DNA of 64,000 nt from Zoogloea sp. Lineage in GTDB: Bacteria; Pseudomonadota; Gammaproteobacteria; Burkholderiales; Rhodocyclaceae. Position numbers and translations under genes: made by a program. The notes beneath the pieces are model-generated. The model saw only the letters and a program-made list of their open reading frames with translations. It ran no database searches and was not told the origin of the DNA. The stretch covers positions 558,001 through 622,000 of the forward strand of contig JADJBR010000007.1 of assembly GCA_016703645.1 (NCBI GenBank), in the 5' to 3' direction. Below are positions 4,592 to 63,107 of this stretch, one piece after another (within the stretch, counting starts at the first letter, position 1; each line of letters opens with the position of its first letter).

Positions 4592-4593
4592 GC

Positions 4594-7868: not shown

Positions 7869-7926
7869 GTGTCTCTCCTCCTGTGTTGTTGTGCTGTGCT
7901 GCGGGTGCCGGGCGCGGTGCGCCCGC

Positions 7927-8190
7927 TCACCTGAAACGTTGATGAGTGGCCTCGCGGAGGCTCCAGTTGAAATCGTCTTCGCCCTCGGCAGGGCGCTCCC
8001 CTTCCAGCAGGATCACCCGGTTGGTCAGGCAGAATTCCTCGTAAGCGGCCGCCGGGAGCAGCATCTCGACGAACAGGGCCGGGTCGGAGATCGAGAACTC
8101 GAACTCCACCAGTCCGTCGGCGCGTCGCTCCACCAGACGCACGTACTTGCGACTCACATCCACGGGCGGCGGGCTTGTCGGATCGATCAT
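7927..8190 (-). CDS. dmpK: phenol hydroxylase assembly protein P0
   Basis: First gene of the phenol hydroxylase operon. In the characterised system it helps assemble active oxygenase, probably at the iron-loading step, and is not needed for catalysis. The ATG at 8190 gives 87 residues starting MIDPTSPPPVDVSRKYVRL. A longer frame opens with a TTG at 8232, but that codon lies inside the sigma-54 promoter, so the ATG is chosen. A GCGAGAAAAAG stretch precedes it. Confidence 0.92.
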   Translation of the reverse strand: MIDPTSPPPVDVSRKYVRLVERRADGLVEFEFSISDPALFVEMLLPAAAYEEFCLTNRVILLEGERPAEGEDDFNWSLREATHQRFR

Positions 8191-19100: not shown

Positions 19101-21952
19101 ACCTCGCTCGAGGGACACCATTCGAGCAATCCCCGGTGGCTGACCCCCATCCGCCACCAGGTACGGACGATGGCATCCAGGCTGAAAGCGGCCTCATGGG
19201 GCAGGCAGGCAAACTCGAAGCCGAGTTGCGCCACACGGCGAACCGCCGAGTCCAGAACCACTGCCAGATGCTGCCCGAAGAGAACCTCCTCGGGCTTGCG
19301 CAGCAGATCAAGGGCCGCCGCGCAGACGGCGGGTACAAGGAGCATGCCGATCAGCATGGCGGTCCAGGGCCACGAGGGCGCCAGGATGGCCCAGCCCAGC
19401 ACCAGCAGCAGGACCAGCGCCGCCGGCACGAGGCTGCGCCGCAGGTTGTCCGCGAGCTTCCACTGGGACAGGGCGGACAGCGGATTGCCCTGTCGATGCC
19501 CTACCCCGCCGGGGGATCCGGCAACGCAGGCGCATGGCACCTTGCGCAGCAGCCAGCCGGCAAGCTGCCAGTCGCCGCGGATCCAGCGATAGCGTCTGCT
19601 CACGTCGACGCTGTAACGGGATGGCGGATCTTCGTACAGCAAGCCATCGCTAAGCAGGCCCGCACGGGCGTAGCAACCTTCCAGCAGGTCGTGGCTGAGC
19701 ACCCGGTTGTCGGGCAGACGGCCCCCGAGCGCGTGCTCAAAGGCATCCAGGTCGTAGATGCCCTTGCCGATGAAGGAGCCTTCACCGAAAACATCCTGAT
19801 AAACATCCGAGACGGCGCGGGTGTACGGATCGATGCCCGGCTCGCCGCCGTAGAGCTGCGCATAGCGTGATCGGTTCGCGCCCGGCAGGCTGACGCCGAC
19901 CCGCGGTTGCAGGATGCCGTACCCGGCCACGATCCGCCCCGCCTGATTGTCGTAGACCGGCCGATTGAGCGGATGGGCCATGGTGCCCACAAACTGCCGT
20001 GCCGCATCCCGCGGCAGTTGTGTATCGGTGTCGAGGGTGATGACGTACTTCACATCCGCCAGAAGGGCAATGTCGCCCACGATGGTGACAAAACCCTCCC
20101 CCAGGCCGCCGCGCAACAACAGGTTCAGGTCGGCGAGCTTGCCACGCTTTCGCTCGGCCCCCATCCAGCAGCGCTCCCGGGGGTTCCAGCTACGCGGGCG
20201 ATGGAAGAGGAAGAAGATGTCGCCGCCCTTGACGGCGTAAGTCCTGTTGAGCGCCTCGATACCGTGCCGTGCCAGGTCCACGAGGGCGCCATCGGTGGGC
20301 AATGACGCCTGCGGCGCGTCGAGAAAATCGGTGAGCAAGCCGAAACGTACCCGCTCGTCCCGATTGGCCAGAAAACGCACCTCCAGGGCCTCAAGCAGGC
20401 TGTCGACGCCCGACTGACTGCTGAGCATGCTGGGCACCACCACCAGGGTGCTTGACCCCGCCGGGATACCCTCCGAAAAGTCCATCCGGGGCAAGGGCCG
20501 CGGCGTCACCAGCAGCGTCGCCAGCCAGTTCGTCAGGGCCACCGCAAGCTGGCTCGCCACCGGGATCAGCACCACCACCAGGGGCAACAAGGCCCAGCGG
20601 GGCCATGCGCTCTCCAGCGCCTCCAGCATCAGCAGCCACACAACCAGAACCGTGGCAAGGACAATGGCGCCCAGATAGAGCAACAGGGGCACGCGTCGCG
20701 CCGCCCGGCGCAAGCCGTCCCGGAAACCGGTGCGCACGCCGGCCTCGCGCTCCAGCACCACGCGCCCTGCATCGATCAGGTAGTAACCGACGTGGCTCTC
20801 CCGCGCGCCCGTGCCCGGTGGCGCTGCCCTGGCCAGGTCCACGGCCTTGCGGGCAACCTCCCGCTCACTCAAGGAACCCTTCCGGGCAATCTCCTCGGTG
20901 GCATGGCGATAACGGTCACGGGTCGCAAAATCCATCCGTACGTAGATGCCGCCCGGGTCGCCGCGCAGGGTCTGCTCCACCAGGCTCAGGCTCTCCACGA
21001 AATCCTGCCAGTCCATCGCGCCGAGCACGCGCAGACTGCCAATGCTGTTGCTGATGGACATCTGATCGGCGGCCTGCTGTTGGTTCTCCGCCTGGACCAG
21101 ATGGGTTATGGTCAGGCCCGACTGGGCCAGGCGCTGCTCGACCCAGGTCAGCGGCAAGGCCAGCGCCGGGCCGCGGCCCTGCAGGCGGCGGGCCAGTTCG
21201 GCAACAAAGCCGCCCCCCAAAGGGGGCCCCGAGCGCACCATGTCGGCGACCACCAGGATCAGGCTCTCCGGATCAGTCTCCACCGCAATGGTCATGCGGT
21301 CGGCCCACGAATCGGCAAGCCCCCGCTCAGCCCATCCCGCAGCAACCCCCACCCCCACCCGCCGCAGGTTCTCGATGACCGCCAGCCGCAGCATGATCGG
21401 AATGGCCCACAGCTCGCCAAGCTTGAGGGGGGCAACCGTCTGGTAGGCGGCCACGAAACGGCCCAGGCTGTCCGCATCGACCCGACCATCTCCGTGGGCC
21501 ACAGCCTCCAGGGCAATGTCATACACCCGTGGCCGGCCGGAGGCCGACACGTCGCCCCCCAGGCGCGGTAGCTCGCGGCTATAGCCTTCCGGCAGCAGCC
21601 GTCGGGCCATGCGGATCTGTTCCTCGATCAAATAGAAGTTGTCGAGCAGCCACTCGCCCGCCGGGGCAATGCGGCGATTTCCCGCCACTGCTCCGGTCAG
21701 CAGCTTGCAGACCTCGATGAGGGTGCGTTCGTTGTCATCCAGCCGGGCCAGCAGACCATCGGGCACGGCGCGACCCGGGGCCGGGGAGTGCGCCTCGGCA
21801 AGCACCTTGCCGTGCCCGGCCATCTGATCGGCACCGAACAACTCGGCGCGCAAGGGAGGCTCCGGCGCCGCGGCTTCCCGCCGCCATACACCCTGCAGCC
21901 TGCCAAGGAAGCGGGATCTGAACTCGCGAAAGCCCTCCGCAACGGCCCTCAC
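13133..21952 (-). CDS. ndvB: cyclic beta-1,2-glucan synthase-like protein (GT84-GH94, NdvB/ChvB type)
   Basis: Giant inner-membrane protein of 2939 residues from a GTG start, slightly longer than classical ChvB/NdvB (about 2830-2870). Membrane segments near residues 415-470 bracket the N-terminal region. The glycosyltransferase domain shows TLDTDTQLP (near 640) and YRWIRGDWQ (near 788). More membrane spans occur near 830-1000. A glucoamylase-like module follows ([17 protein letters not shown]), and then the GH94 phosphorylase region with GSGDWNDGM near residue 2612, the catalytic-Asp motif. Such enzymes initiate, elongate and cyclise periplasmic beta-1,2-glucans and trim their length. No transport partner (NdvA) is visible. 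It lies alone, divergent from the lipoprotein genes. Confidence 0.93.
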
Positions 21953-44970: not shown

Positions 44971-45147
44971 CATGAAAAAAAGGCTCTGTTCGCCTTAGTT
45001 ATGTAAACACTGCCCCGGACAGGCACGCCAGGCTTGGTGAGCCTTGCCGTCCGGGGTGGAAGCGCTTTCCAGACGTTCCCCCGAACGTTGTTGTCTCGTT
45101 TCGTTCGACCTCGAATTGGTGCTTACGGACGGATTTCCCTTGTATTC

Positions 45148-45585
45148 CGTTACATTGGCCGGGTCTCGGCCCGGCGGCCGACCGACTTCTTTGTTGTACG
45201 ACAAAGAAGTCGGCAAGAAAGCGTACCCCGCTGTCGCGCCCCCTTCGGGGGTGCCCTCTTTCCGGGTCCGTCAGGCGGGGTCTGCGCAAACTCGCCCTGC
45301 GGGCTCAAACATGCGCAGCCCTTTTTCCGCCTGCCGAACCCTCCAGTCGGCGCGCCAGAGGGGAAAGGAAATGCAGGTTACCAACGGTCAGTGCCAACAG
45401 TTCCCTGCGGAGAGGCTCGGTGCATCGGAAAAGCCCGTTCCGCGCCGCCGTAGCCGGCCGGGTGTGCAAACCCGACCGTGGAAAAATCCCGGCCAAGGTT
45501 ACGCCAAACACCGGAAAGCCCATAAGCAAGGGCTCAAGACTTCCCTGTCGAAGCGAAAGCGCTTTCCACACTTAACGCGAACATC
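45148..45585 (-). repeat. interspersed repeat, copy 1
   Basis: Near-identical over about 430 bases to copies 2 (49955-50535) and 3 (51691-52135), but in the opposite orientation. It contains a strong palindrome, CCGACTTCTTTGT and its inverse around TGTACG (45180-45212). Open frames run through several phases of all copies and conserve DNA rather than protein, so it is treated as non-coding. Its 3' edge lies about eight bases from the end of the group II intron. Confidence 0.88.
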
Positions 45586-45592: not shown

Positions 45593-47441
45593 ATAGGGGG
45601 CGGCCCTGAGGGCCGCTCCCCTGCCACACCACCCGGCATGCGGGTCCGCACCGGGCGGTTCGAGTAGTTGAGGTCAAGACAGGCGCGGTACGCCCATTCG
45701 GTCGAAGTAGCCGATAGTCATCACTGTTTTCAGCAACCTATCGCTGTTGCGCCACCAGCGGCGGCTGTTTGCCGCCACCTGCTTTGCCGTCGACGGCCAA
45801 GCCCCAATCCTGAGCAATTCCCGATACATGGTGGTTCCACGTTTCCAGTGCTTGAGCTGGATAGCCCGCAGCCTGTGACGCATCCATTCATCGAGCCGTC
45901 GCCATACCTTCGGGGTTTGCGCCAGCTGGAAATACCCTTTCCAACCCAGCATATAGGAACGAAGTCCCTGCACCACATCGGCCATACTGCGCCCGCCGGA
46001 TCGGCAGGTCAGTTCCCGGATGCGTTGCTTAAACGCCTGCAGCGGCTTCTCCGCCACCCTGCGCTTGACTTCGCCCCCACGCCCCATCCACAGGCTGTAA
46101 CCGAGGAACTTGCGGCCGAAGACACTGGCCACGGCGCTCTTGCCCTCGTTGACCACGAGGTGCAACCTGGCATAGCAGCGCCGTAGCAGCCCCATCACCC
46201 GCTGGCCCGCCCGCACGCTACGAACGTAGACGTTCGCATCGTCGGCGTAGCGTGCGAAGCGATGGCCGCGCCGTTCCAGCTCCTTGTCCACTTCATCTAG
46301 CATCACGTTGGCGAGTAACGGGCTCAACGGACCGCCCTGGGGCGTTCCGTCGCTCCGCTTCTGCACCACGCCATGGTCCATGATGCCGCTGTTCAGATAG
46401 GCACGGACCAGCCGGATCACCCCGGCATCGTCGATGCGTTTCCTCAGGCGGTCGATCAGGATGTCATGGCTGACCCGGTCGAAGAATTTCGACAGATCCA
46501 CGTCCACCACGATTCGCAAACCGGACTGGGCATATGCCTGAGCGGCTAATACCGCGTCCTGCGCACGCCTGCCGGGCCGAAAGCCGTAGCTGTGCTCGCT
46601 AAAAGTGGGGTCAAGGATCGGTTGCAGCACCTGTAATAGTGCTTGCTGGATCAGGCGATCCGTCACCGTCGGGATGCCGAGCTCACGCTCGCCACCGTCG
46701 GGTTTCGGGATCGTCACCCGACGTACCGGACTGGGCCGGTACGTCCCTGTCAGCAGTCGTGCCCGTATGTGCGGCCACTCGGTTGCCAGCAAACGCGAGG
46801 TCTGGTCGATATCCAGTCCATCCACGCCAGCCGCTCCCTTGTTGGCACGTACACGCTTGAACGCCCGCCGCAGGCTCTCTGTCGTCAGCGCCGCTTGCAG
46901 CAGCGCCGACCCTGTGCTTCCGGTTGCATGCCGCGGGCAGAACGCTTCGTCGCTGAAAGCATCAGGCATGGCTTCACCTTGCCCTACGGCTTCCCGCCCC
47001 GCGTTAGCGGGCATCTGACGCTGTGCCTTCTGCATCGGCATATCGGATTCACTCCTACTCGTTCGGTCCTTCGTCGGCGGGGTCGAGCCTTCCCGGCGCT
47101 ACCTCCGACTACTATGACCTCTGCTGAGACCCCGCTCCGACCTTCGTCGTCGCCCTTTCAAGCACGAGGCGGGGCGTCCCCAGGTAAGGGCCGCACTCCT
47201 TCATCACACAACCGCCGCATCTACGTCGCTTCGCTTTGACCACAAGAGCTTCGCGGTCTTGGGCCCGCTCGCCCTGCTCGGCAACGCCTTCTATGCGATT
47301 CTTGTCCATCGGCTCATGATTTACGTTCCACGCTTCCTTCCCACGGTTGGTTACCCTTCCGCAGTTGCGCTTCACTTCGCTCACTGTGGTCAGCTCGCGG
47401 CGGGACTTGCACCCGCAGGAGTGCGCCCATGCTGGGCGCAC
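45593..47441 (-). mobile_element. group II intron (IIC-like), about 1.85 kb
   Basis: The 5' boundary on the minus strand is GTGCGCCCAGC at 47441, the group II GUGYG start. Domain V lies at 45626-45660: CCGCCCGGTGCGG, four-base loop, then the complementary strand with the usual bulge. Domain VI (45594-45622) follows and the intron ends CCCTAT at 45593. The maturase sits in domain IV. The element lies directly behind a rho-independent terminator (47444-47479) in the same orientation, the classic target preference of bacterial class C introns. It appears complete. Confidence 0.85.
45674..47041 (-). CDS. ltrA: group II intron reverse transcriptase/maturase
   Basis: 455 residues. Reverse-transcriptase domain: PKPDGGERELGIPTVTDRLIQQAL, FSEHSYGFRPGRRAQDAV, VVDVDLSKFFDRVSHD, TPQGGPLSPLLANVMLDEVD and the catalytic ARYADDANVYV (near residue 263). 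The thumb/maturase X domain follows (ELTCRSGGRSMADVVQGLRSYMLGWKGYF). It stops at YFDRMGVPRLS with no HNH endonuclease, as in class C introns. It splices its own intron RNA and reverse-transcribes it into new sites. Confidence 0.95.
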   Translation of the reverse strand: MPMQKAQRQMPANAGREAVGQGEAMPDAFSDEAFCPRHATGSTGSALLQAALTTESLRRAFKRVRANKGAAGVDGLDIDQTSRLLATEWPHIRARLLTGTYRPSPVRRVTIPKPDGGERELGIPTVTDRLIQQALLQVLQPILDPTFSEHSYGFRPGRRAQDAVLAAQAYAQSGLRIVVDVDLSKFFDRVSHDILIDRLRKRIDDAGVIRLVRAYLNSGIMDHGVVQKRSDGTPQGGPLSPLLANVMLDEVDKELERRGHRFARYADDANVYVRSVRAGQRVMGLLRRCYARLHLVVNEGKSAVASVFGRKFLGYSLWMGRGGEVKRRVAEKPLQAFKQRIRELTCRSGGRSMADVVQGLRSYMLGWKGYFQLAQTPKVWRRLDEWMRHRLRAIQLKHWKRGTTMYRELLRIGAWPSTAKQVAANSRRWWRNSDRLLKTVMTIGYFDRMGVPRLS

Positions 47442-47575: not shown

Positions 47576-47932
47576 TCAGCCTGATTTGCCGCTTGCGGCA
47601 GTTTCTGCGCCAGCACCCGCCTGGCCCGGACCGAGGGCTTTGCACATCTTGCCGACCACGGTCACCGACATTTCGCCGCGGGGGTAGACACGACAGGCCA
47701 GCACCACGCCGCCGGCTTCTTCTTCTTCGCTGATGCAGGCGCGGCTCATCTTGCGGGCCTCGTAGCTGCCGGTATCAACGTGCACCTTGCACACGCCACA
47801 GCCACCGCCCCGGCAACCCACGGGAATGCCTCGCCGGCCCAGCACTTCCATGCCGCGCAGCAGGCTCAGGTCGGACGCACAGGCGAAATCCTCCCCGCTG
47901 TTTTCAATATGAATACGGTACTTCTCGGCCAT
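47576..47932 (-). CDS. dmpQ: plant-type [2Fe-2S] ferredoxin for catechol dioxygenase reactivation
   Basis: 118 residues from the ATG at 47932, just after CAGGAGGAG. A longer frame upstream is not family-like. Cluster cysteines are at 40, 45, 48 and 80 ([10 protein letters not shown] ... LACRV). DmpQ/XylT ferredoxins re-reduce the iron of catechol 2,3-dioxygenase after oxidation by substituted catechols. The C-terminal tail ([18 protein letters not shown]) is longer and more flexible than usual. It is displaced from its normal place between dmpP and dmpB and is divergent from dmpR. Confidence 0.9.
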
Positions 47933-48002
47933 CGTCTCCTCCTGGTGGGCGGACCGGGCACGATCACGCTGCGGTGATCTTGGGTTAAACGCCCGGCTCG
48001 CC

Positions 48003-48018
48003 ATTTTCTCGAGATTTT
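48003..48018 (-). promoter_or_regulatory. CTCGAG palindrome in the dmpQ-dmpR divergent region
   Basis: ATTTTCTCGAGATTTT on the plus strand. On the minus strand it lies just downstream of an A/T-rich TAATAA (48022-48027) that could be the dmpQ -10 box, with TTGCGT (48045-48050) 17 bases upstream. A protein bound here would block dmpQ. It is a third near-identical copy of the motif found before dmpB and dmpK. Confidence 0.5.
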
Positions 48019-48197: not shown

Positions 48198-49868
<1,671 letters not shown>

Positions 49869-49954
49869 GGCAGGCCGGGCGATGGCACTCGCAGGAAGTC
49901 GAAGGAATGAACTCAACAACAACCCGGCATGATCCCGGGCCTGTGTTGGGTCGA

Positions 49955-50535
49955 GTTAAGTGTGGAAAGCGTTTTCGCTTCGATAGGTAGGGCTTGAGCC
50001 CTTGCTTACGGGCTTTCCGGTGTTTGGCGTGACCTTGGCCGGGATTTTTCCACGGCCCGGTTTGCACACCCGGCCGGCTACGGCGGTGCGGAGCATGCTC
50101 CGCGAAACCCCGCCTCCGCCCCCGGCGGGCGACTGGCTTTCTTGCGTCGCCAAGAAAGCCAGCAAAGAAGGCGACCCGGCCACCCCGGTTTTTCGCTACG
50201 CGAATGACTCCCCTGCGCTGCTCCCAGCAGGCGGCCGGCGCGGAACGGGTTTTTCCGATGCACCGAGCCTCTCCGCGCGGAACTGTTGACACTGACCGTT
50301 GGTAACCTGCATTTCCTTTCCCCTCTGGCGCGCCGACTGGAGGGTTCGGCAGGCGGAAAAAGGGCTGCGCATGTTTGAGCCCGCAGGGCGAGTTTGCGCA
50401 GACCCCGCCTGACGGACCCGGAAAGAGGGCACCCCCGTAGGGGGCGCGACAGCGGGGTACGCTTTCTTGCCGACTTCTTTGTCGTACAACAAAGAAGTCG
50501 GTCGGCCGCCGGGCCGAGACCCGGCCAATGTGACG
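49955..50535 (+). repeat. interspersed repeat, copy 2 (with internal insert)
   Basis: Same element as copies 1 and 3, here in the plus sense. It carries about 150 extra bases (about 50093-50243) that the other copies lack. The junctions share GCGG, and the insert contains its own hairpin (CTTTCTTG..CAAGAAAG). It is inverted relative to copy 1, and the pair brackets the intron, dmpQ and dmpR. Confidence 0.88.
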
Positions 50536-50596
50536 CAACATGCAGGAAAGCCGTCCAGTCAGGGCTCACCGGTTCAAGGTCGAACGGAATGACCTG

Positions 50597-51677: not shown

Positions 51678-51704
51678 GGTCGAGTTAATTGCCTATGTTC
51701 GCGT
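51678..51704 (+). repeat. 27-bp inverted repeat, right of the RES-Xre locus
   Basis: Partner of 50597-50623 (two mismatches). It forms the left edge of repeat copy 3. A shortened version, GGTCGAGTTAAG, starts copy 2 at 49950. Confidence 0.75.
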
Positions 51705-52135
51705 TAAGTGTGGAAAGCGCTTTCGCTTCCACAGGTAAGGTTTGAGCCCTTACTTGCGGGCGTTCCGGTGTTTGGCGTGACGTTGGCCGGGATTTTTCCA
51801 CTGCCGGGTTTGCACACCCGGCCGGCTACGGCGGCGCGGAACGGGCTTTCGCGCACACCGAGCCTTTACCGATACAGGGCTGGGCAACTGACCGTTGATC
51901 ACCTGCATTTCCTCTCCCCCTCTGGCGCGCCGACTGGAGGGTTCGGCAGGCGGAAAAAGGGCTGCGCATGTCTGAGCCCGCAGGGCGAGTTTGCGCAGAC
52001 CCCGCCTGACGGACCCGGAAAGAGGGCACCCCCGAAGGGGGCGCGACAGCGGGGTACGTTTTCTTGCCGACTTCTTTGTCGTACAACAAAGAAGTCGGTC
52101 GCCCGCCGGGGGCGAGTCCCCGGCCAATGTAACGA
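51691..52135 (+). repeat. interspersed repeat, copy 3
   Basis: Same sense as copy 2, without its internal insert. It ends about 60 bases before the benE stop. The dyad CCGACTTCTTTGT and its inverse complement are conserved (about 52068-52100). Confidence 0.88.
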
Positions 52136-52192: not shown

Positions 52193-53371
52193 TCAAGCTG
52201 ACTTCACCCGCCAATCCCGATGCAGCACCAGGTAGGCCACCAGGCCGATGACAACCCCCCAGAAGGCAGACCCCAGCCCCAGGAAGCTCATACCTGAGGC
52301 GGTGGCCAGGAAGGTGATGACGGATGCCTCCCGGTGGTCGGCCTCGTTGATGGCGCCCATGATGTTGGCGGTGATGGCACCGATCAGGGCCAAACCGGCC
52401 AGCACCGCCACGAAGGCCGACGGAAGCACGGCGAACAGGGACACGATGGTGGAACCGCAGGCGCCGCCGATCAGGTAGAACAAGCCATTGGACACCCCGG
52501 CCACATAACGCCGGGCCGGGTCTTCGTGGGCGTCGCGGCCGGTGCACAGGGCGGCGGTGATGGCGGCGATGACAATCGTGATGCCACCAAAGAAGGCCAC
52601 GGCCACCGAGGTAATGGCCGTCACTGTGATGATGGGCCGGGCGGGGGTTGAATAGCCGGAGCTGCGCAGGATCGCCATGCCCGGCAGGAACTGACCGGTG
52701 ATGCTCACCAGCACCAGGGGCAGCGCAAGACTCAGCGTCGCGCTCCAGCTCCACTCCGGGCGGATGAACACCGGCGTGGCCAGCCCCAGTTGCACATGCC
52801 CGAGATCGGCCTTGCCCAGCAGGCTGGCCAGGGCGACCCCGACGAGCAGCACCAGGATCATGCAGTAGCGGGGCGTGAGGCGCTTCAGGGTCACGTAGGC
52901 GGCAATCATGCCGAAGCCCAGCACCGGCATGGCGCCGGCCGCCTTGAAGGCCTGCACCCCGAACTGGAACAGGATGCCCGCCATCATGCCGGCGGCGATA
53001 CCCTTGGGCACATGCTTCAACAGACGGTCGAAGGACCCGGAGATACCGATTGCAAAGAGAATTGCCGCGCTGGTGATGTAGGCGCCCACCGCCTCGTTGA
53101 GGGACAGGCCGGGAAACAGGGTCACCAGCAGCGCCGTGCCGGGTGCCGACCAGGCGGTGACCACCGGCACCTTGAGGGCGACGCTGAGGAAGATCCCCGA
53201 CAGGGCAGCACCGATGGATACCGCCCACACCCAGGACGAGATCATGTCGGGGGCCACCCCGGCCGACTGGGCGGCCTGGAAGAAGATGATCAACGGCCCG
53301 GAATAGGAGATCAGGACGGCGAGAAAGCCCGCCGTGACGGCGGAGACGGACCAGTCCGTGCGCGAAATCAT
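52193..53371 (-). CDS. benE: benzoate/H+ symporter family transporter
   Basis: 392 residues from the ATG at 53371, the usual BenE size, with about 11-12 hydrophobic spans (ISYSGPLIIFFQAAQSAG, PGLSLNEAVGAYITSAAILFAIGISG, PRYCMILVLLVGVALASLLG, FFGGITIVIAAITAALCTGRDAHEDPARRYVAGV). BenE imports benzoate and related aromatic acids by proton symport. As the last gene of the dmpC operon it may import an aromatic acid or a pathway intermediate. Its substrate here is inference. It lies 67 bases after the oxidoreductase. Confidence 0.9.
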   Translation of the reverse strand: MISRTDWSVSAVTAGFLAVLISYSGPLIIFFQAAQSAGVAPDMISSWVWAVSIGAALSGIFLSVALKVPVVTAWSAPGTALLVTLFPGLSLNEAVGAYITSAAILFAIGISGSFDRLLKHVPKGIAAGMMAGILFQFGVQAFKAAGAMPVLGFGMIAAYVTLKRLTPRYCMILVLLVGVALASLLGKADLGHVQLGLATPVFIRPEWSWSATLSLALPLVLVSITGQFLPGMAILRSSGYSTPARPIITVTAITSVAVAFFGGITIVIAAITAALCTGRDAHEDPARRYVAGVSNGLFYLIGGACGSTIVSLFAVLPSAFVAVLAGLALIGAITANIMGAINEADHREASVITFLATASGMSFLGLGSAFWGVVIGLVAYLVLHRDWRVKSA

Positions 53372-53438
53372 GGGTGTCGTGGGGAATATCCGAGAATGGA
53401 CGCGCGGAGCCGGGCCAGGCCCGACCCCGCGCACGGCG

Positions 53439-56400
53439 TCACGCCCGCTTCATGAGCACCACGGGAGAATTGAAGGCCACCAGACGCTCGGCCCGCAGTT
53501 CTGCCGCACGCTGGAGGTTCTTCTCCTTCACATGCCCGTAGCCGCGGATCTCGTCCGGCACGCTGGCGAGCGCCACCGCAGCAGAGTGATTGGCGACACT
53601 CAGCCGACCGATGATGCCGTCAAGCTCCCGGATGTAGTCATCGATGAGCTTGCGCTCCGTGCTCCGCTCTTCGGTCTTACCGAACAAGTCCATGGCCCCG
53701 CCGCGCAGCTTCTTCCAGCCGGCCAGGCGCTGGAAGGCCTTGAACATCCACGGGCCATATTGCTTCTTCAGCAGGTGACCGGTCTGCGGGTCGGTGTCGG
53801 CCAGCAGCGGCGGCGCCAGGTTGTACTTGACGCTGTAGCCATGGGGAAACTGGGCGTCCAGCTCGGCCAGGAAGGCCGGGTCGGTGTGCAGGCGGGCCAC
53901 TTCGTACTCGTCCTTGTAGGCCATCAGCTTGTACAGGTAGCGGGCGGCGGCTTCCGACAGGGCCGTGGCGCCGGGCAGCACGCCCTGCTCGGCGGCCACC
54001 ACGCGCTTGAGCACGCCGGCGTAGCGCCGGGCATAGGCCTCGTCCTGGAAGGCGATCAGCTCGGGCACGCGCACTTCCGCCAGACGCTTCACTTCGCCCT
54101 GGGCGCCGATGGACTCCACGATGGCCCGGGCCGCTGCACTAAGCTGCGGCGCCTGCTTCAGGCTGATGACCCCGGCCCCCTTGCTGCGCGCCACCTCGGC
54201 CTCGACAAAGGCCAGATCGACCACGGCCATGCGCCCCCAGCGGAAGGCAGCGAGACTTTGCTCGACACCGACACCGGAGTTCCGGATGGCGGCTTCGATG
54301 GACTCGGCCTTGAGGGGGATGGTGCCGGCCTGGAAGGCCACCCCGACCATGAAATTGTTGGTGGCCATGGCATCGCCGAAGAGCCCCTCGGCCAGGGCCT
54401 GGCCGTCCAGGAAGATGTTGTCGTCCTTGCGGCTGACCCGGTCGATGCCGGCGGTGAGGCCCTGGGTGGCCGGGAACATCACGTGCCGGTCGGCGATCAT
54501 CTTGCCGGTGGGCGTGCGGGTGGTGGACACCACGGCGATGGTGCGCGAGGGGTGGCACTTGTCCAGGTTCTTCGGGTCGGTGGCGTTGAGGATGTCAAAA
54601 CCCAGGTAGAGGTCGGCCCGCCCGTCGGAGATCTTGTTGCTGCCATGGAAGGGCGCGTGGGAGATCTTGATGTCGGAGATCACGTTGCCGCCCTTCTGGG
54701 CCAGGCCGGTCTGGTCGAGGCCGATGACGTGCTTGCCCTCCAGCCGCGCGGCGTTGGCCAGGGTGGCCACCACCGTCACCGAGCCGGTGCCGCCGATGCC
54801 CATCACGTGGATGCCGAAGCCCAGGCTGTCGTCCACCTTCTTGGGTGGCGCGGGCAGCTCCCGCTCCAGGGCGGGGATGCGGCCCTTCCTGCGCTTCTTG
54901 CCGTCCCCCGCCGGTGCGGCATTGGGGGTGATGGTCAGGAAGGACGGGCAGAAGCCCTTCACGCAGGAGAAGTCCTTGTTGCAGGAGGACTGGTGGATGC
55001 GCGTCTTGCGGCCGAATTCGGTGTCCACGGGTTCGACGCTCATGCAGTTGGATTTCTCGCCGCAGTCGCCGCAGCCTTCGCAGACCCGTTCGTTGATGAC
55101 GGTGACCTCCGCCGGCTCCTCGGCCTTGCCGCGGCTGCGGGCACGACGCAGCTCGGCGGCGCACTCCTGGTCGTGGATCAGCACGGTGGTGCCGGGGGTG
55201 GCGGCGAGTTCCTTCTGGGCTTCGTCCAGGCGGTCCCGGTGCCAGACCTCGGTGTGGCCGTCCAGGCGCACGCCGGAATAGTTGCCCGGCTCATCGGTGG
55301 TGACGATGATGCGCCGCACGCCGTTGGCGAGCAGATCGGAGACCATGTTGGCCACCGGGTGGGCACCCTGGATGGCCTGGCCGCCGGTCATGGAGGTGTG
55401 GGCGTTGACCAGCAGCTTGAAGGTGATGTTGACGTTGGTGGAGGCGGCATAGCGGATGGCCAGGCTGCCCGAGTGGGCGTAGGTGCCGTCGCCCATGTTC
55501 TGGAAGATGTGGTCGGTGTCGGTGAAGGGCGCCATGCCGATCCACTGGGCGCCTTCGGCCCCCATGTGGGTGCCCATCACCACATTGCGGCCCATCCACA
55601 TGGCCATGGTGTGGCAGCCGATGCCGGCGGAGACGACGCTGCCCTCGGGGGCCACGGTGGAGCTGTTGTGGGGGCAGCCGGAGCAGTACCAGGCGGTGCG
55701 CACGGTGGTGGGCAGTTTGCTGCGGGCGGCAATCTCGTCCAGTCGGCGGATCCAGTTTTCGGCGGATTCGACGCGGGTCTTGCGCGACAGGCGCTTGGTC
55801 AGCGCGCGGCAGATCACGTCGGACTCGAACTCGCCATAGTGGGGCAGCAATTCCTTTTCTTCCTCGTCAAACTTGCCGACGATGCGCGGCGCGTTGGCGC
55901 GGCCGTACAGCACCTGTTTGGCGAACATCTCCAGGAAGGGGCGCTTCTCTTCAATGACGAAGATCTCCTCCAGCCCTTCGGCGAACTCGCGCACGATGGT
56001 CGGCTCCATGGGGAAGAGCATGCCCATCTTGAGGATGCGGATGCCGTAGCGGCGCAGGGCCTCGTCATCCAGCCCCATCTCGAGGAAGGCCTGCTTGAGG
56101 TCGTTGTAGGTCTTGCCGGCGGTCATGATGCCCAGCCAGGCATCGCGGTTCTCAAAGACCACGTTGTTGAGCTTGTTGGCGCGGGCGTAGCGCTTGGCCA
56201 CTTCCAGACGCCGGGTGTACAAGGACTGCTCCATCTCCAGGGCGTCGGCGCGCACGTTCATGCCCAGGTTCATGCGCGGGGTAAAGAGCTGGCCGTCGAA
56301 CTCCAGGTCGGGGGTGATGAAATCGAGCCGCTCGGGGGACACCAGCGCGCTGCCCGAGCCGTCGGCCACGTTGGTGACGATCTTCATGCCCATCCACACG

Positions 56401-56978
56401 CCGGCCAGGCGTGACATCTGGTAGCCGTGCAGGCCCAGGTCGAGGATCTCCTGGACGTTGCCCGGGTAGAGGGACGGAATGCCCAGGTGAAAGAGCATGG
56501 GCTCGGACTGGCTGCACAGGGACGAGCTCTTGCAACTCGGGTCATCGCCGGCGATGGCGAGCACCCCGCCGTTCTTACCGATGCCGGTGTAGTTGGCGTG
56601 CTTGAGGGCGTCGCCGGAGCGGTCCACCCCGGGCGCCTTGCCGTACCACAGGCCGTTGACGCCATCGAATTTCTGGCCCCCCACCGTGTGCAGCATCTGG
56701 GTGCCCCACACGGCGGTGGCAGCCAGATCTTCGTTGATGCCATCCACGAAATGGATATGCTTCTCGAGCAGCAGCTTCTGCTGCCGGATCAGCGCTGCGT
56801 CGAGCATGCCCACGGGCGAGCCCCGGTAGCCCGACACGAACATGCCGGTCTTGAGCCCCCGGCGCGCGTCGGTGCGCACCTGGTCCAGGGTCAGGCGCAC
56901 GATCGCGTCGATCCCCCCGAGGTGGATCACCCCTGTTTCCTGGGTGAAGGGATTGGTCTTTTCTTCCTTGGCTGCCAT
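53439..56978 (-). CDS. fused 2-oxoacid (indolepyruvate-type):ferredoxin oxidoreductase
   Basis: 1179 residues from the ATG at 56978. This is a single-chain enzyme of the indolepyruvate ferredoxin oxidoreductase family, which oxidatively decarboxylates a 2-oxo acid to an acyl-CoA and reduces ferredoxin. N-terminal domain with GYRGSPVGMLD (near 50). Thiamine-diphosphate site GDGTYAHSGSLAIRYAASTNVNITFKLLVN (near 500). A Cys cluster (CEGCGDCGEKSNC...SCVKGFCPSF, about 633-675) suits [4Fe-4S]. Gamma-type domain GIGGTGSVTVVATLANAARLEG (near 727). It sits inside the dmpCEH-benE run, where an aldolase and an acetaldehyde dehydrogenase would be expected. Annotation as indolepyruvate-specific is therefore doubtful in this context. 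Confidence 0.9.
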   Translation of the reverse strand: MAAKEEKTNPFTQETGVIHLGGIDAIVRLTLDQVRTDARRGLKTGMFVSGYRGSPVGMLDAALIRQQKLLLEKHIHFVDGINEDLAATAVWGTQMLHTVGGQKFDGVNGLWYGKAPGVDRSGDALKHANYTGIGKNGGVLAIAGDDPSCKSSSLCSQSEPMLFHLGIPSLYPGNVQEILDLGLHGYQMSRLAGVWMGMKIVTNVADGSGSALVSPERLDFITPDLEFDGQLFTPRMNLGMNVRADALEMEQSLYTRRLEVAKRYARANKLNNVVFENRDAWLGIMTAGKTYNDLKQAFLEMGLDDEALRRYGIRILKMGMLFPMEPTIVREFAEGLEEIFVIEEKRPFLEMFAKQVLYGRANAPRIVGKFDEEEKELLPHYGEFESDVICRALTKRLSRKTRVESAENWIRRLDEIAARSKLPTTVRTAWYCSGCPHNSSTVAPEGSVVSAGIGCHTMAMWMGRNVVMGTHMGAEGAQWIGMAPFTDTDHIFQNMGDGTYAHSGSLAIRYAASTNVNITFKLLVNAHTSMTGGQAIQGAHPVANMVSDLLANGVRRIIVTTDEPGNYSGVRLDGHTEVWHRDRLDEAQKELAATPGTTVLIHDQECAAELRRARSRGKAEEPAEVTVINERVCEGCGDCGEKSNCMSVEPVDTEFGRKTRIHQSSCNKDFSCVKGFCPSFLTITPNAAPAGDGKKRRKGRIPALERELPAPPKKVDDSLGFGIHVMGIGGTGSVTVVATLANAARLEGKHVIGLDQTGLAQKGGNVISDIKISHAPFHGSNKISDGRADLYLGFDILNATDPKNLDKCHPSRTIAVVSTTRTPTGKMIADRHVMFPATQGLTAGIDRVSRKDDNIFLDGQALAEGLFGDAMATNNFMVGVAFQAGTIPLKAESIEAAIRNSGVGVEQSLAAFRWGRMAVVDLAFVEAEVARSKGAGVISLKQAPQLSAAARAIVESIGAQGEVKRLAEVRVPELIAFQDEAYARRYAGVLKRVVAAEQGVLPGATALSEAAARYLYKLMAYKDEYEVARLHTDPAFLAELDAQFPHGYSVKYNLAPPLLADTDPQTGHLLKKQYGPWMFKAFQRLAGWKKLRGGAMDLFGKTEERSTERKLIDDYIRELDGIIGRLSVANHSAAVALASVPDEIRGYGHVKEKNLQRAAELRAERLVAFNSPVVLMKRA

Positions 56979-57046
56979 GGGATGTCCTCTCTCAGTCTTC
57001 GGGCCGCTCCGGGGCGGCCTTCTCCGCGTGAATGGTGGGTGGTGAA

Positions 57047-57835
57047 TCAGACGAAGCGCATTGACACGGTGCCCAGATCCTGGAAGCGCACTGCCACGTT
57101 GTCGCCCGCCTGGACCGCGATGGCCTCGGTGACGCCACCAGTCATGATAAACGTACCGGCGGGGATCTCCTGGCCCCGGGCGCCCAGGTGGTTCGCAAGC
57201 ATCACCACGGCAGCCAGGGGGTGGCCAAGCACGGCAGCACCGGCGGCCATGGCAACGATCCCACCGTTCTTCTCCATGACCACACCGAGGGTGCGCAGGT
57301 CCAGTTCGTCCAGGTTGCGGGGGCGGCCACCGACGACAAAGCGCGAGGCCGAGGTGTTGTCGGCAATCACGCTCTTCAGGTCGAACTTGAAGTCCCGGTA
57401 GCGGGAATCGATGATCTCCACGGCCGGCACGACGAAGTCGATGGCTGCCATCACCGCACCCAGATGGCAGCCGGGGCCGGACAGGGGCGCCTTGGTGACG
57501 ACGCAGATCTCGGCCTCGACCTTGGGATGGATCAGCTCGGAAGTCTTGATGTCGGCGCCGTCCGGGCTGCTCATGTAGTCGCTGACGAAGCCGAAGACGG
57601 GCACTTCGACGCCCATCTGCTTCATCTTGGCAAAGGAGGTGAGGCCGGCCTTGAGGCCGACGGTCTTGTTGCCGCGGCCTTCCTTGCGGCGCCGGATCTC
57701 GTCCTGGATGGCGTAGGCGTCGTCCCAGTCCATGTCCGGGTGGTCGTCGGTGATCTTGGTGACGTCGTAGGCCTTCAGCTCGGCGGTTTCCAGGTGATCG
57801 GCGAGCTTGAAAATAATAGCGTTGTCGAGGTTCAT
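57047..57835 (-). CDS. dmpH: 4-oxalocrotonate decarboxylase
   Basis: 262 residues (DmpH is 264). Decarboxylates 2-oxo-3-hexenedioate (4-oxalocrotonate) to 2-hydroxypenta-2,4-dienoate, in complex with the hydratase DmpE. Family blocks: GLKAGLTSFAKMKQMGVEVPVFG, HPKVEAEICVVTKAPL (metal-site Glu residues), IIDSRYRDFKFDLKSVIADNTSA. It is homologous to the neighbouring hydratase. 20 bases separate it from dmpE. Confidence 0.93.
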   Translation of the reverse strand: MNLDNAIIFKLADHLETAELKAYDVTKITDDHPDMDWDDAYAIQDEIRRRKEGRGNKTVGLKAGLTSFAKMKQMGVEVPVFGFVSDYMSSPDGADIKTSELIHPKVEAEICVVTKAPLSGPGCHLGAVMAAIDFVVPAVEIIDSRYRDFKFDLKSVIADNTSASRFVVGGRPRNLDELDLRTLGVVMEKNGGIVAMAAGAAVLGHPLAAVVMLANHLGARGQEIPAGTFIMTGGVTEAIAVQAGDNVAVRFQDLGTVSMRFV

Positions 57836-57855
57836 GCTGTGTCTTCCGGTTGGGG

Positions 57856-58637
57856 TCAGATGAAGCGGACCGAGGTGCTGCCAAGGCCGCCCACTGCGCA
57901 GACGAGGGAGTCGCCGGCCTTGACCGGCACGAGGGGCGACTGGGAACCGGAGAGGATCACCTCCCCCGCCTTGAGCCCGATGCCCAGGCGGCCCAGGGTG
58001 TTGGCCAGCCAGGCCACGGCATTCACCGGAGAGCCCTGCACAGCGGCGCCGGTGGAGGTGCTGATGAGCTCACCGTTCTTTTCCAGGACCATCCCGGCGA
58101 GGGCCAGATCCAGGTCGCGGGGGCTGCGACGCACGCCGCCGAGGGTCAGCACGCCGCAGGAGGCGTTGTCCGCCACGGTGTCCTGGATCTTGATCTTCCA
58201 GTCCTTGATGCGGGAATCGACAATCTCGAAACAGGGCAGCACGCATTCGGTGGCCCGCAGCACGTCGGCCGCGGTGACGCCGGGGCCTTCCAGGTCGTGC
58301 TTGAGGATGAAGGCCACTTCGGCCTCGGCCCGGGGGCGATCATGCTGTCCACGCGGATCGCCTCGCCTTCGTTGAAGACCATGCCGGAGGTCATCTGACC
58401 AAAGTCAGGCTGGTTCACCTTGAGCATGTTCATCACCACTTTGCTGGTGACGCCAATCTTCTTGCCGACGATAGTCTCGCCAGCGTCCAGGCGGCGCTGG
58501 ATCATGCGCAACTGGATGCGGTAGGCGTCGTCCAGGGTGATGCCGGGCTCCCGGTCGGTCAGGGGGGCCACCGGCGTGCGGGTGATGAGGGCGTTGTAGA
58601 GCTCGTCACCGAAGTGTTCGATCTGGGTCTTGTCCAT
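57856..58637 (-). pseudogene. dmpE: 2-hydroxypenta-2,4-dienoate hydratase (frameshifted)
   Basis: Adds water to 2-hydroxypenta-2,4-dienoate to give 4-hydroxy-2-oxovalerate. The ATG at 58637 starts MDKTQIEHFGDELYNALITRTP. The frame is correct to EGEAIRVDSMIA and breaks at a run of five G (58332-58336). It resumes as RAEAEVAFILKHDLEGPGVTAADVL and runs to the stop. One missing base in the homopolymer restores a 260-residue protein, the normal size (261). Metal-site glutamates (AEAEVAF) and IVDSRIKDWKIKIQDTVADNAS are intact. Sequencing error in a homopolymer is as likely as true inactivation. Confidence 0.9.
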
Positions 58638-58743
58638 GGGTCTTGCGTCTCTCTTCATTCCGGTTTGAGGGTGCCGGCCCCGGAGGAGGGGTCGGGGCCG
58701 GCGGGCGCCCCGGGAGGGGGCGCCGGGAGGAACAGGGGCGTGA

Positions 58744-60204
58744 TCAGTACTTGATCATCACGTTGCGCAGCTCAGTGTAGAACTCCAGCGAATGCAGCCC
58801 TCCCTCGCGGCCGATGCCCGACTGCTTGGAGCCGCCGAAGGGCGTGCGCAGATCCCGCAGGAACCAGCTGTTGATCCAGCACAGACCCACTTCGATCTGG
58901 GTGGCCAGGCGGCTGGCGCGGCTGATGTCCTGGGTGTAGATGGAGGTGGCCAGGCCATACTTGGTGTCATTGGCCATGCGCACGGCTTCTTCTTCGGTGT
59001 CGAAGGGCTGGATGTGGCAGCACGGCCCGAAGATCTCCTCGCGCACCACCGCGGCGGTTTCGGGCAGGCCGGTCCAGATGGTGGGTTCGACCCAGCAGCC
59101 ATCCTTGAGACCGTCCGGCATGTCGGGCACGCCACCGCCGGTGACGATGGTGGCGCCCTCCTCCCGGGCCTTCTGGTAATAGGAGAGCACCTTCTTCTGG
59201 TGCACCTTGCTGACCAGGGGGCCGATCTTCGTGTCTTCGTCGAAGGGGCGGCCGGGCTTCATGCCTTCGGCCTTGGCTTTCAGGGCGTTGACGAACCTCT
59301 CGAAGATCGGGCGTTCCACATAGACACGTTCGGTGCCCAGGCAGACCTGGCCACAGTTCTCGAAGACCGAGCGGGTGACGGTGTTCACCGCGTTCTCGAA
59401 GTCACAGTCGGCAAACACCACCGCGGCGTTCTTGCCGCCCAGCTCCAGGGACACCGGGCGGATGCCATCGGCGCCCGCCTTCATGATGGCGGTGCCGGTC
59501 TTGGTCTCGCCGGTGAAGGTGATGCCGCTGACGTCCGGGTGGGCGGTCAGCAGGGCACCGGCGGAATCCACGCCGAAGCCGTTGATCACGTTGTACACGC
59601 CGGGGGGCACGCCGACCTTGTTCATCACCTCGCCCAGCAGGGTGGCGGTGGCCGGGGTGACTTCGGAGGGTTTGACCACCACGGTGTTGCCACAGGCCAG
59701 GGCCGGGCCGACCTTCCAGGTCATCAGCAACAGGGGCAGGTTCCACGGGCTGATCACGGCGATCACGCCGCGCGGCGTGCGCACGCCGTAGCTGCGGGCG
59801 GTCTTGCCGTCGGGGGTGCGCATCTCGAAGGATTCGGTGGAGACGTTCTTGATGGTGTCGGTGAAGATCTTGAAGTTGGCCGCGCCGCGCGGAATGTCGA
59901 TGTGCGAGGCCAGGTGGGCGGGCTTGCCCGTGTCGGCGATCTCGGCCTGCAGGAAGTCGTCGAAGCGGTGGTTGATCTCGGCGACGATGGCGTCGAGCAT
60001 GGCACAGCGTTCAACCACCGAGAGCTTGCCCCAGGGGCCGTGCAGGGCCGCCTTGGCGGCAGCCACGGCGGCATCCACTTCGGGCTTGCCAGCTTCGTAG
60101 ACCAGGCCGATCAGGGAGTTGTCCACCGGGTTGCGGTTCTCGTAGGTCTTGCCGCTGGCGTTGGCGACGTACTCGCCGTTGATGAAGTTCTTGAATTCTT
60201 TCAT
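58744..60204 (-). CDS. dmpC: 2-hydroxymuconic semialdehyde dehydrogenase
   Basis: NAD-dependent oxidation of the ring-cleavage product to 4-oxalocrotonate (enol form). 486 residues from the ATG at 60204, identical in length to DmpC. A frame extending 33 bases upstream is not family-like. Aldehyde dehydrogenase motifs: SPWNLPLLLMTWKVGPALACGN, catalytic Glu in VSLELGGKN (near 253), nucleophile Cys in FENCGQVCLGTERVYV (near 287). It is the first gene of the minus-strand lower-pathway operon. Confidence 0.95.
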   Translation of the reverse strand: MKEFKNFINGEYVANASGKTYENRNPVDNSLIGLVYEAGKPEVDAAVAAAKAALHGPWGKLSVVERCAMLDAIVAEINHRFDDFLQAEIADTGKPAHLASHIDIPRGAANFKIFTDTIKNVSTESFEMRTPDGKTARSYGVRTPRGVIAVISPWNLPLLLMTWKVGPALACGNTVVVKPSEVTPATATLLGEVMNKVGVPPGVYNVINGFGVDSAGALLTAHPDVSGITFTGETKTGTAIMKAGADGIRPVSLELGGKNAAVVFADCDFENAVNTVTRSVFENCGQVCLGTERVYVERPIFERFVNALKAKAEGMKPGRPFDEDTKIGPLVSKVHQKKVLSYYQKAREEGATIVTGGGVPDMPDGLKDGCWVEPTIWTGLPETAAVVREEIFGPCCHIQPFDTEEEAVRMANDTKYGLATSIYTQDISRASRLATQIEVGLCWINSWFLRDLRTPFGGSKQSGIGREGGLHSLEFYTELRNVMIKY

Positions 60205-60278
60205 GTCGTACTCGCTGAAATGGATTTCGAGGCCCACTTACCGATGGGTCGTGACGTGTTGCCGGGATGCGCATCTAT

Positions 60279-60329: not shown

Positions 60330-60424
60330 ACGGGGGAAACCCCCACTCACCGGCCAATGTCATGACGCCCCCGGGGTTTTCGGTATCGTTCGAAGCTCGC
60401 GCACGTCGTAAGAGGAGACACATC

Positions 60425-62428
60425 ATGACCCACAGCACCCCGAAGTTCGTGCGCCCCCAGGGCCGCAATACCGGAAAGATCGTCAGTGCAGCCGACGCCG
60501 TGCGGTTGATCCGCGCGGGCGACACCGTGGCGACCACCGGCTTCGTCGGCATCGGCTTCCCCGAGAACATCGCCATCGCCCTCGAGCAGCGCTTCCTCGA
60601 CACCCGGGAGCAGGACCCGAGCGGGAAGGGCCAACCCGCGGGGCTGACCCTCGTCTACGGTGCGGGTCAGGGCGACGGCAAGGATAGGGGGCTCAACCAC
60701 CTGGGCCACGAAGGTCTGGTCAAGCGCGTGATCGGCGGCCACTGGGGGCTGGTGCCGCGCCTGCAGGAGCTCGCGGTGTCGAACCGTATCGAGGGCTACA
60801 ACCTGCCCCAGGGGGTGATCACCCACCTGTACCGGGACATCGCCGCGGGCAAACCCGGCACCCTGACCCCGGTAGGCCTGGGCACCTTTGTCGATCCTCG
60901 CTTCGGCGGCGGCAAGGTAAACGGGCGGACCACCGAAGACCTGGTGAGGGTCATGGAGATCGACGGTGAGGAATACCTCTTCTACAAGGCCTTCCCGATC
61001 AGCGTGGGCATCATCCGCGGCACCACGGCGGACCCGGATGGCAACATCACCATGGAGAAGGAAGCCCTGACCCTCGAAGGCCAGGCCATCGCGATGGCCG
61101 CCCGCAACAGCGGCGGCATTGTCATCGCCCAGGTCGAGCGCATCGCCGAAGCCGGCTCCCTCAATCCACGCCAGGTGAAGATTCCCGGCATCCTGGTGGA
61201 CTGCATCGTGGTCGCCGAGAAGCCCGAATGGCACATGCAGACCTTCATGGAACAGTACAACCCGGCCTTCTCCGGGGAGATCCGCGTGCCGGTGAGCTCC
61301 CTCGAACCCATGGAGATGAGCGAGCGCAAGATCATCGCCCGCCGCGCGGCCATGGAGCTCACCCCCAACGCGGTGGTGAATCTGGGCATCGGCATGCCCG
61401 AAGGAATCGCCGCAGTGGCCGCCGAGGAGCGCGTCATCGACCTGATGACCCTCACCGCCGAGCCCGGCGTGATCGGTGGCATTCCCCAGGGCGGGCTGAA
61501 CTTCGGTGCCGCCATCAACACCGCCGCGATTGTGGACCAGCCCAGCCAGTTCGACTTCTACGACGGCGGCGGGCTCGACATCGCCTTCCTGGGGCTCGCC
61601 CAGGCGGATATGCAGGGCAACCTCAACGTCTCCAAGTTTGGCCCCAAGCTCACGGGCGCCGGCGGCTTCATCAACATCAGCCAGAACGCCAAGAAGGTCG
61701 TCTTCGTCGGCACCTTCACCGCCGGCGGGCTGGAGGTGGCCCTGGACGACGGCAAGCTGAAGATCCTCGTGGAGGGCAAGGCGGTGAAATTCGTCCAGGA
61801 GGTCGAGCACCGCACCTTCAGTGGCCCGGAGGCGCTACGCCGCCGTCAGCCCGTGCTGTATGTCACCGAGCGCTGTGTGTTCGAGCTGACCCCCGACGGT
61901 GTCGAGCTGATCGAGGTGGCGCCGGGGGTGGACATCGAAGGGGACATCCTTGCCCACATGCGCTTCGCCCCCCTCATTCGCGGCACGCCGCGCCAAATGG
62001 ATGCGCGCATCTTCCGGGATGAACCCATGGGCCTGCGCGGCACCATCGTGACGACGCCCCTCGCCTCGCGCTTCCATTTCGATGCAGTGCAAAACATCTT
62101 CTTCATCGACTTCGAAAACCTGCGCCTTCGCAAGGCGAGCGAGATTGAAGACATCCGCGCCCTCGTCGAGGACATCCTCGCGCCCCTTGGTCGCAAGGTG
62201 CCCGCGGTGGTGAACTACCACGGCTTCGACATCCAGGATGACCTGATCGAACCCTATGCCAACATGATCGAGGGGCTGATGGCACGCCGCTATACCCAGG
62301 TTACCCGCTACGCCACCAACACCTTCCTGCGGGCAAAACTCGGCGACGCCCTGACTGCCCGACAACTCGCCCCGGAGATTTTCGACTCGGCAGAAGAGGC
62401 CAAGGCGGGGATCTCGAACCCCCAATGA
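60425..62428 (+). CDS. fused acyl-CoA:carboxylate CoA-transferase with C-terminal extension
   Basis: 667 residues from the ATG at 60425, behind AGGAGA. Both halves of a type I (AtoD/AtoA-like) CoA-transferase are fused, as in propionate and acetoacetate CoA-transferases: [19 protein letters not shown] in the first half, and the catalytic Glu346 in [10 protein letters not shown] with [12 protein letters not shown] in the second. About 130 additional residues (from [21 protein letters not shown]) go beyond the usual fused length. It transfers CoA between short acyl groups. It is divergent from dmpC and upstream of a phasin gene, so a role in hydroxybutyrate/acetoacetate metabolism is plausible. 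Confidence 0.88.
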
Positions 62429-62531: not shown

Positions 62532-62603
62532 TTTTGGCAAGAGGCTGCGGGAGGGAATTGATCTGCGTCTCTAACTGTTCAACAACAATGTGTGGAGAAA
62601 ACT

Positions 62604-63107
62604 ATGGCGACCAAGCAAGAACAGCAATTCAACGAGATCCAGAAAAAGAACCTCGAGGCCGCCATGCGCCTCGCTCAACTCTCAATCGAAAACTCCCAGC
62701 GCATCATGGAACTGCAGGTGGGCACCGCCAAGTCCCTGTTTGAAGAAGGCGTGGCCAATGCCAAGGCGCTCTCCGGCGTCAAGGATCCTGCCGAGGCCCT
62801 GAGCCTGCGCACCGCTTACGCCCAGGCCACCACCGAGAAGATGCTGTCCTGTGCCCGCGAAATCGCCGAGATCACCTCCAAGACCCAGGCCGAAGTCGGC
62901 AAGATGGTCACGGAGCAACTCACCGGCGGCGGCCAGGACGTGGTCGACTCCTTCCAGAAACTGTTCAAGGGCCTGCCCATTGGCGACCACAATGCGCTGG
63001 GTTCCATCCAGGCTGCCATGGACACCGCCCGTGCCGCCTACGAGCAGATGACCAAGGCTTCGGCTGACGCCTTCCAGGCCTTCACCAAGATCACCCCGAA
63101 GAAGTAA
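62604..63107 (+). CDS. phaP: phasin (polyhydroxyalkanoate granule protein)
   Basis: 167 residues from the ATG at 62604, preceded by GTGGAGAAA. Phasin_2-type sequence: QFNEIQKKNLEAAMRLAQLSIENSQRIMELQVGTAKSLFEEG, an amphipathic, Ala-rich, all-helical protein with no membrane span. Phasins coat storage granules and control their number and size. The gene is monocistronic, bounded by its own promoter and a strong terminator. Confidence 0.92.
   Translation: MATKQEQQFNEIQKKNLEAAMRLAQLSIENSQRIMELQVGTAKSLFEEGVANAKALSGVKDPAEALSLRTAYAQATTEKMLSCAREIAEITSKTQAEVGKMVTEQLTGGGQDVVDSFQKLFKGLPIGDHNALGSIQAAMDTARAAYEQMTKASADAFQAFTKITPKK

Follow-up and report, generated by a model that had tools for sequence, protein, structure and literature searches.

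A fused oxidoreductase clade in catechol meta-cleavage operons of Rhodocyclaceae as a candidate alternative to DmpG and DmpF

Here we consider a run of genes in a 64,000-nucleotide stretch of Zoogloea sp. DNA (contig JADJBR010000007.1, positions 558,001 to 622,000; the whole stretch is referred to as the window), in which part of the lower pathway for catechol meta-cleavage is followed by a fused 2-oxoacid:ferredoxin oxidoreductase of the indolepyruvate family (indolepyruvate oxidoreductase, IOR; 1179 residues). On the minus strand, from 60237 to 52193, lie dmpC, dmpE, dmpH, the IOR gene (ATG at 56978, stop at 53439) and a benE-type symporter gene, with gaps of 4 to 85 bases between the open reading frames (Table 1); a benE-type gene also lies downstream of IOR at a locus of a sister genome (L125). 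The lower meta-cleavage pathway, made up of a hydratase, an aldolase and an acylating dehydrogenase, is a textbook module, and we found no match to the genes for its last two enzymes, dmpG and dmpF, in the run or across the 64-kb window. We find that this IOR belongs to a distinct clade whose members are linked to dmpE, and we consider what reaction it might carry out there.

A preliminary description of the window, made from the sequence alone, had recognized the same run, and profiles confirm its gene order and the 1179-residue IOR, but dmpE is not intact. The TIGR03220 match is split over two frames by a frameshift near 58330, with positions 1-98 in one frame and 104-255 in the other, and comparison with the sister genome (L125) places a single uncompensated one-base gap at about 58329, inside dmpE; no uncompensated indels relative to L125 were found in dmpC (from 60204), dmpH or IOR. 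The break in dmpE may have arisen by mutation in the organism, or it may be an error of sequencing within a C/G run.

A distinct IOR clade linked to dmpE

Among 296 genomes of the family, 28 loci, spread over 26 genomes of 7 genera, match the window IOR at 70-100% (E-value 0), and the other matches listed are at most 48% identical; in a scan of genome contigs the next best fused IORs below the clade reach at most 52% identity. A further, partial copy in G275, cut at the contig start, matches at 93% over 303 residues and forms a 29th locus with the order benABCD-benK-C23O-dmpC-dmpE-dmpH-IOR (C23O, catechol 2,3-dioxygenase); it was left out of the 28-locus, 26-genome, dmpFG and dmpE counts given here. 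At least 27 family genomes out of 296 carry the clade and, because the G275 copy emerged only outside the matches listed, further partial copies may sit there too. In a tree of 72 sequences, all 29 from the clade group together (support 0.99, stem 0.45). A search of 369 genomes of the class at E 1e-300, a threshold that would miss partial copies, found no clade member beyond the window's own, and of the 159 plasmid records that gave a match none reached 60% identity. Spread by plasmids or beyond the family was set aside on these results, and the clade appears to be confined to the Rhodocyclaceae in the samples searched. It shares with the fused IOR family (PRK13030/NF009589) its length, its thiamine and Fe-S residues, a POR gamma domain and a DUF6537 C-terminus, but is at most 52% identical to the other members seen, has HTS where they mostly have AVA in a loop near the thiamine site, and is linked to catechol meta operons.

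A true dmpE lies within 8 kb of IOR at 17 of the 28 listed clade loci, and widening the interval to 15 kb adds none. By contrast, none of dmpE, dmpH, dmpF, dmpG, C23O and benA was found at any of 79 other fused-IOR loci in the flanks examined (E 1e-15), some of which are short; these loci comprise 74 from the genome-contig scan, 4 from family genomes and the window genome's own paralogue, and six of them encode an aldehyde dehydrogenase with 26-39% identity to dmpC. An association of IOR with the dmp genes across related genomes, a check suggested in the preliminary description, is seen for dmpE at 17 clade loci but not at the other 11. In Zoogloea the order is benABCD-benK-C23O-dmpC-(dmpD)-dmpE-dmpH-IOR, at L128, L132 and L134 benDCBA is divergent from IOR-Fer2-C23O-dmpC-dmpE-dmpH, and at L138 the order C23O-MetA-IOR-dmpC-dmpE-dmpH follows genes whose sizes match a phenol-hydroxylase set. 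The ben and C23O names come from curated profiles at L016 (the same locus as L125) and from similarity elsewhere. Of the 17 dmpE-linked loci, 13 carry ben genes (at least 52% identity), the exceptions being the window run, L133, L138 and L150, and phenol-hydroxylase-sized genes occur only at L138; phenol is accordingly not supported as the operon's usual substrate, and the link to phenol drawn in the preliminary description is weak. L150, in the Thauera-type genome G234, has a branched-chain-type ABC transporter, a bphD-like hydrolase that scores below the BphD cut-off, dmpE and IOR, while the opposite strand encodes a crotonase and an ADP-forming acyl-CoA ligase; neither dmpF nor dmpG was found in 33 kb of sequence there.

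The clade also differs from other fused IORs close to the thiamine site. The thiamine GDG/N motif and the Fe-S cysteines are intact in the window IOR (residue check; invariant columns in 47 sequences), and we take the residues concerned to serve in thiamine, carboxylate and Fe-S binding. The loop reads N525-A-H-T-S-M-T-G-G-Q, and positions 527-529, just after the thiamine-site Asn525, are HTS in every one of 29 clade sequences but in 0 of 43 others (57/57 clade rows and 0/80 other rows in a larger count that holds some loci twice). By divergence score this is the most diverged three-residue window between the clade and other fused IORs, which have mostly AVA there and also TVA, HVA, AAA, VVA and ATA. 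By motif position, we take position 530, next after HTS, to correspond to a residue of StOFOR1 that influences substrate choice. In that enzyme, changing the residue that the authors align with Asn996 of DaPFOR is reported to affect which substrate is used (PMC5020499). A sequence search at E 0.001 found no solved structure for IOR, and a profile search of structures reached two gamma chains. In a search with a sub-profile, unrelated Lon proteases came out ahead of OGOR beta chains; a shorter profile put OGOR beta first, in a weak match (E 0.033) that places the TGGQ motif and aligns the loop stretch, and a fold search returned thiamine enzymes and PFORs at low TM-scores. The AlphaFold model of IOR has a mean pLDDT of 83 and a pTM of 0.59, and no pocket shape was read from it because it is poor at 527-540.

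dmpF and dmpG near to and far from the IOR

The preliminary description had taken dmpF and dmpG to be absent. This is true of the run and of the window, but the genome as a whole holds four copies each of dmpG and dmpF (4 matches each to PF07836 and PF09290), and the premise that they are missing fails genome-wide. Both genes are each found in 25 of the 26 clade genomes, the exception being a genome that is 60% complete; dmpFG has therefore not been lost, and genome-wide loss was ruled out. The nearest pair is in a dmpC-dmpD-dmpE-SDR-dmpF-dmpG-dmpH-tautomerase operon just left of the window (C7:547,941-554,835), whose dmpC and dmpD are named from similarity only and whose dmpG is 62 kb from IOR. 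From this full operon, and from phenol-hydroxylase and C23O genes at window 2418-8163, we infer that growth of the window strain on phenol would not need IOR. The gene list of a partial catechol meta cluster in Zoogloea oleivorans Buc, of the same genus, resembles that operon (PMC7012976); unlike the window run it has dmpF and dmpG, and its figure legend names no such oxidoreductase. The sole benA match of the window genome is at C7:1034 kb, beside benBCD and C23O, and no dmp genes were found in the 20-kb stretch around it. We also note that one of the genome's dmpG copies, on C10 (L012, 10975-11996), looks frameshifted because its matches fall in two overlapping frames, and that the dmpC of a dmp cluster in another genome, G148 (L152, 14864-16314), may be broken because its matches come in two pieces.

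IOR and dmpFG go together at the level of the genome and appear to exclude each other close to dmpE, within limits set out below. Against the 25 of 26 clade genomes, dmpG is present in 68 of 270 other family genomes (p about 4e-13, ignoring kinship). Within the clade genomes there are 53 dmpE loci, counted as those that score 390 bits or more together with the broken copy of the window, and dmpF or dmpG lies within 8 kb of dmpE at 1 of the 17 that have IOR versus 25 of the 36 that do not (Fisher p 1.5e-5, ignoring kinship); within 15 kb the counts are 2/17 and 26/36. The clade operons share dmpC, dmpE and dmpH, and in most relatives C23O and ben genes, with the dmp/xyl lower pathway, but differ from it in having IOR and in that 16 of the 17 IOR-linked loci have neither dmpF nor dmpG within 8 kb of dmpE.

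Four genomes (G133, G248, G036 and G263) have a single true dmpE, and it belongs to the IOR operon. The only dmpFG of the first three is in a C23O-SDR-dmpF-dmpG operon that has no true dmpC, dmpE or dmpH and carries further genes sized like phenol hydroxylase; G263 has a separate F/G operon of the same kind, plus dmpD. L159 does carry an aldehyde dehydrogenase matching at 36%, which we do not count as a true dmpC. The benzoate operon of these four genomes would be self-sufficient only if IOR ends the pathway, and would otherwise have to borrow dmpFG. IOR usually stands in operons that are without the two standard final enzymes, although these are encoded elsewhere in the genomes concerned, and it may therefore complete the pathway by a route not previously described.

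Other features of the window

The features of the window that bear on the run are collected in Table 1. Both the CoA-transferase and the phasin that the preliminary description placed beyond dmpC, with a view to polyhydroxybutyrate, are there and divergent from it, but their membership in the system is unsupported: no phasin was found at other clade loci, and FadX-like genes occur only near L127, L129 and L157 (52-57% identity). In the L129 strain (L017 is the same locus) the FadX-like gene adjoins genes for an SDR, a thiolase, a crotonase and an acyl-CoA synthetase.

Table 1. Genes of the IOR run and its surroundings in the window
Feature	Position	Strand	Evidence and remarks
2Fe-2S ferredoxin	47576..48004	-	similar gene adjoins sister operon
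MobR/XylR-type sigma-54 activator	48198..49868	+	96% identity to activator beside sister operon
benE-type benzoate/H+ symporter	52193..53434	-	TIGR00843, 507 bits (cut-off 203)
Fused 2-oxoacid:ferredoxin oxidoreductase (IOR), Rhodocyclaceae clade	53439..56978	-	PRK13030, 1572 bits (cut-off 816)
dmpH, 2-oxo-3-hexenedioate decarboxylase	57047..57835	-	TIGR03218, 476 bits (cut-off 351)
dmpE, 2-oxopent-4-enoate hydratase, frameshifted near 58330	57856..58658	-	TIGR03220, two frames
dmpC, 2-hydroxymuconic semialdehyde dehydrogenase	58744..60237	-	TIGR03216, 862 bits (cut-off 693); conserved start near 60204
FadX-like CoA-transferase	60362..62428	+	NF052271, 415 bits, under cut-off 750; divergent from dmpC
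Phasin	62592..63107	+	PF09361, 101 bits; divergent, beyond dmpC

Further along the window, a group II intron reverse transcriptase/maturase is encoded at 45674-47041 (TIGR04416, 389 bits), and copies of a repeat of about 150-320 bases, both direct and inverted, lie at 45127-45584, 49951-50556 and 51695-52110; similar DNA recurs at the dmp loci L010 and L011 of the same genome and at the sister locus L125. A 2896-residue open reading frame at 13133-21823, with GH94 and glucoamylase domains, resembles a cyclic glucan synthase.

The reaction of the IOR and the alternatives

We favour a C5 2-oxo acid from the meta pathway as the substrate of the clade IOR. One branch of the fused indolepyruvate-type oxidoreductases would have been recruited into catechol meta-cleavage operons, mainly those for benzoate, in Zoogloea, Thauera and related genera, and would there oxidatively decarboxylate the DmpE product, 4-hydroxy-2-oxovalerate, with CoA to give 3-hydroxybutyryl-CoA, CO2 and reduced ferredoxin. 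The benzoate operon would in this way reach central metabolism without the aldolase and the acetaldehyde dehydrogenase, in parallel to the dmpFG route encoded elsewhere. We infer the substrate, the product and the direction of the reaction, and put the probability that IOR converts 4-hydroxy-2-oxovalerate to 3-hydroxybutyryl-CoA at roughly 0.42. The broader proposal of a new ending to the meta pathway, with a dedicated clade producing 3-hydroxybutyryl-CoA and reduced ferredoxin, bypassing pyruvate and acetaldehyde, and providing Rhodocyclaceae with a benzoate-operon alternative to DmpG and DmpF, is marginally more tentative. The preliminary description had already placed IOR at the DmpG/DmpF step. 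This chemistry is plausible and gained comparative support from the linkage to dmpE, the scarcity of dmpF and dmpG near it, the L150 operon and the HTS loop, but no such support was gained for the premise that dmpFG is missing, for the link to phenol or for a role of the neighbouring storage-polymer genes. A literature search covering titles and abstract openings, with subscription literature mostly outside its reach, found no description of such an enzyme in a meta operon.

Several observations weigh against this proposal. One is that dmpF and dmpG are retained in nearly all clade genomes. The apparent exclusion between IOR and dmpF or dmpG depends on distance: at five of the 17 loci with both dmpE and IOR (L128, L132, L133, L134 and L138) at least one of the two genes shares a 20-kb stretch with them and, over all 28 clade loci, one or the other is within 15 kb at 6. 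Moreover, 11 of the 36 dmpE loci without IOR are also without dmpF and dmpG, some of them at contig ends and two of them plain dmpC-dmpE-dmpH triads (L164 and L165), and the pattern could reflect two inherited types of operon. The dmpE of the window genome itself is broken, and the loop at 527-540 is a low-confidence part of the AlphaFold model. At eleven of the 28 clade loci dmpE is absent from the 15 kb around IOR; these are seven g64 loci (one on a 3.6-kb contig), L130 and L131, where C23O is next to IOR, a G024 locus that adjoins DUF1329, DUF1302 and MMPL genes, and a G049 locus at a contig end. No dmp genes were found in the stretches examined at the seven g64 loci (L140-L145 and L120), but all seven have, as a point in favour of the proposal, a gene for a MaoC-type hydratase 3' of IOR, on the same strand and no more than about 300 bases away. 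Finally, eight clade genomes (the seven g64 genomes and G144) show the clade copy only, and therefore the clade IOR could also serve arylpyruvates there.

The retention of dmpFG would be explained if IOR acted on the C5 acid before its hydration, as 2-oxopent-4-enoate or the tautomer 2-oxopent-3-enoate, to give vinylacetyl-CoA or crotonyl-CoA. It would then be a salvage route, or a parallel one, that takes up an unstable intermediate while the DmpE-DmpG-DmpF route stays intact. Such a reaction would fit the dmpH-IOR and bphD-like-dmpE-IOR gene orders, the MaoC-type hydratase of g64 and the crotonase near L150, but dmpE is kept nearby at 17 of the 28 clade loci and the polar change at 527-529 would suit a hydroxylated substrate somewhat better; we consider this explanation unlikely. 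Retention of dmpFG is also consistent with the use of another 2-oxo acid, such as aldolase-derived pyruvate or a methyl-substituted meta-pathway acid, or with a role mainly in supplying electrons, for example to a XylT-like ferredoxin, which reactivates catechol 2,3-dioxygenase. The order IOR-Fer2-C23O at five loci (L128, L130, L131, L132 and L134), together with L133, where Fer2 follows IOR, argues for such a role, whereas Fer2 precedes C23O, away from IOR, at six loci (L127, L129, L138, L146, L148 and L149) and none was detected at four (L126, L135, L136 and L137). The scarcity of dmpF and dmpG near dmpE would also be left unexplained. We think this alternative more doubtful still.

It is also conceivable that IOR is an ordinary indolepyruvate or phenylpyruvate oxidoreductase that is merely located in these operons, as its family name and PRK13030 score would suggest; its cofactor residues are common to the family, and 8 of the 26 clade genomes, those named above, show no second fused IOR. 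An ordinary arylpyruvate enzyme would not lead one to expect linkage to dmpE at 17/28 clade loci versus 0/79 for other fused IORs, or the changed loop in every clade sequence. Moreover, 16 of the 26 clade genomes yielded another match in addition to the clade copy; in ten of them it is an ordinary fused IOR at 44-47%, and in the other six it scored below the matches listed (two candidates per genome were scored, both being clade copies in G234 and G024). We regard this as the least probable of the three alternatives, and leave the small remaining probability to some other function. The neighbours of the window genome's ordinary IOR gave no clue to that enzyme's substrate.

If the clade IOR does convert 4-hydroxy-2-oxovalerate to 3-hydroxybutyryl-CoA, carbon from the meta pathway would be routed, without pyruvate or acetaldehyde, straight into 3-hydroxybutyryl-CoA and perhaps into storage polymer, and the energy yield would be altered through reduced ferredoxin in important degraders that live in wastewater and aquifers. 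A clade now annotated as indolepyruvate oxidoreductase would thereby be given a function.

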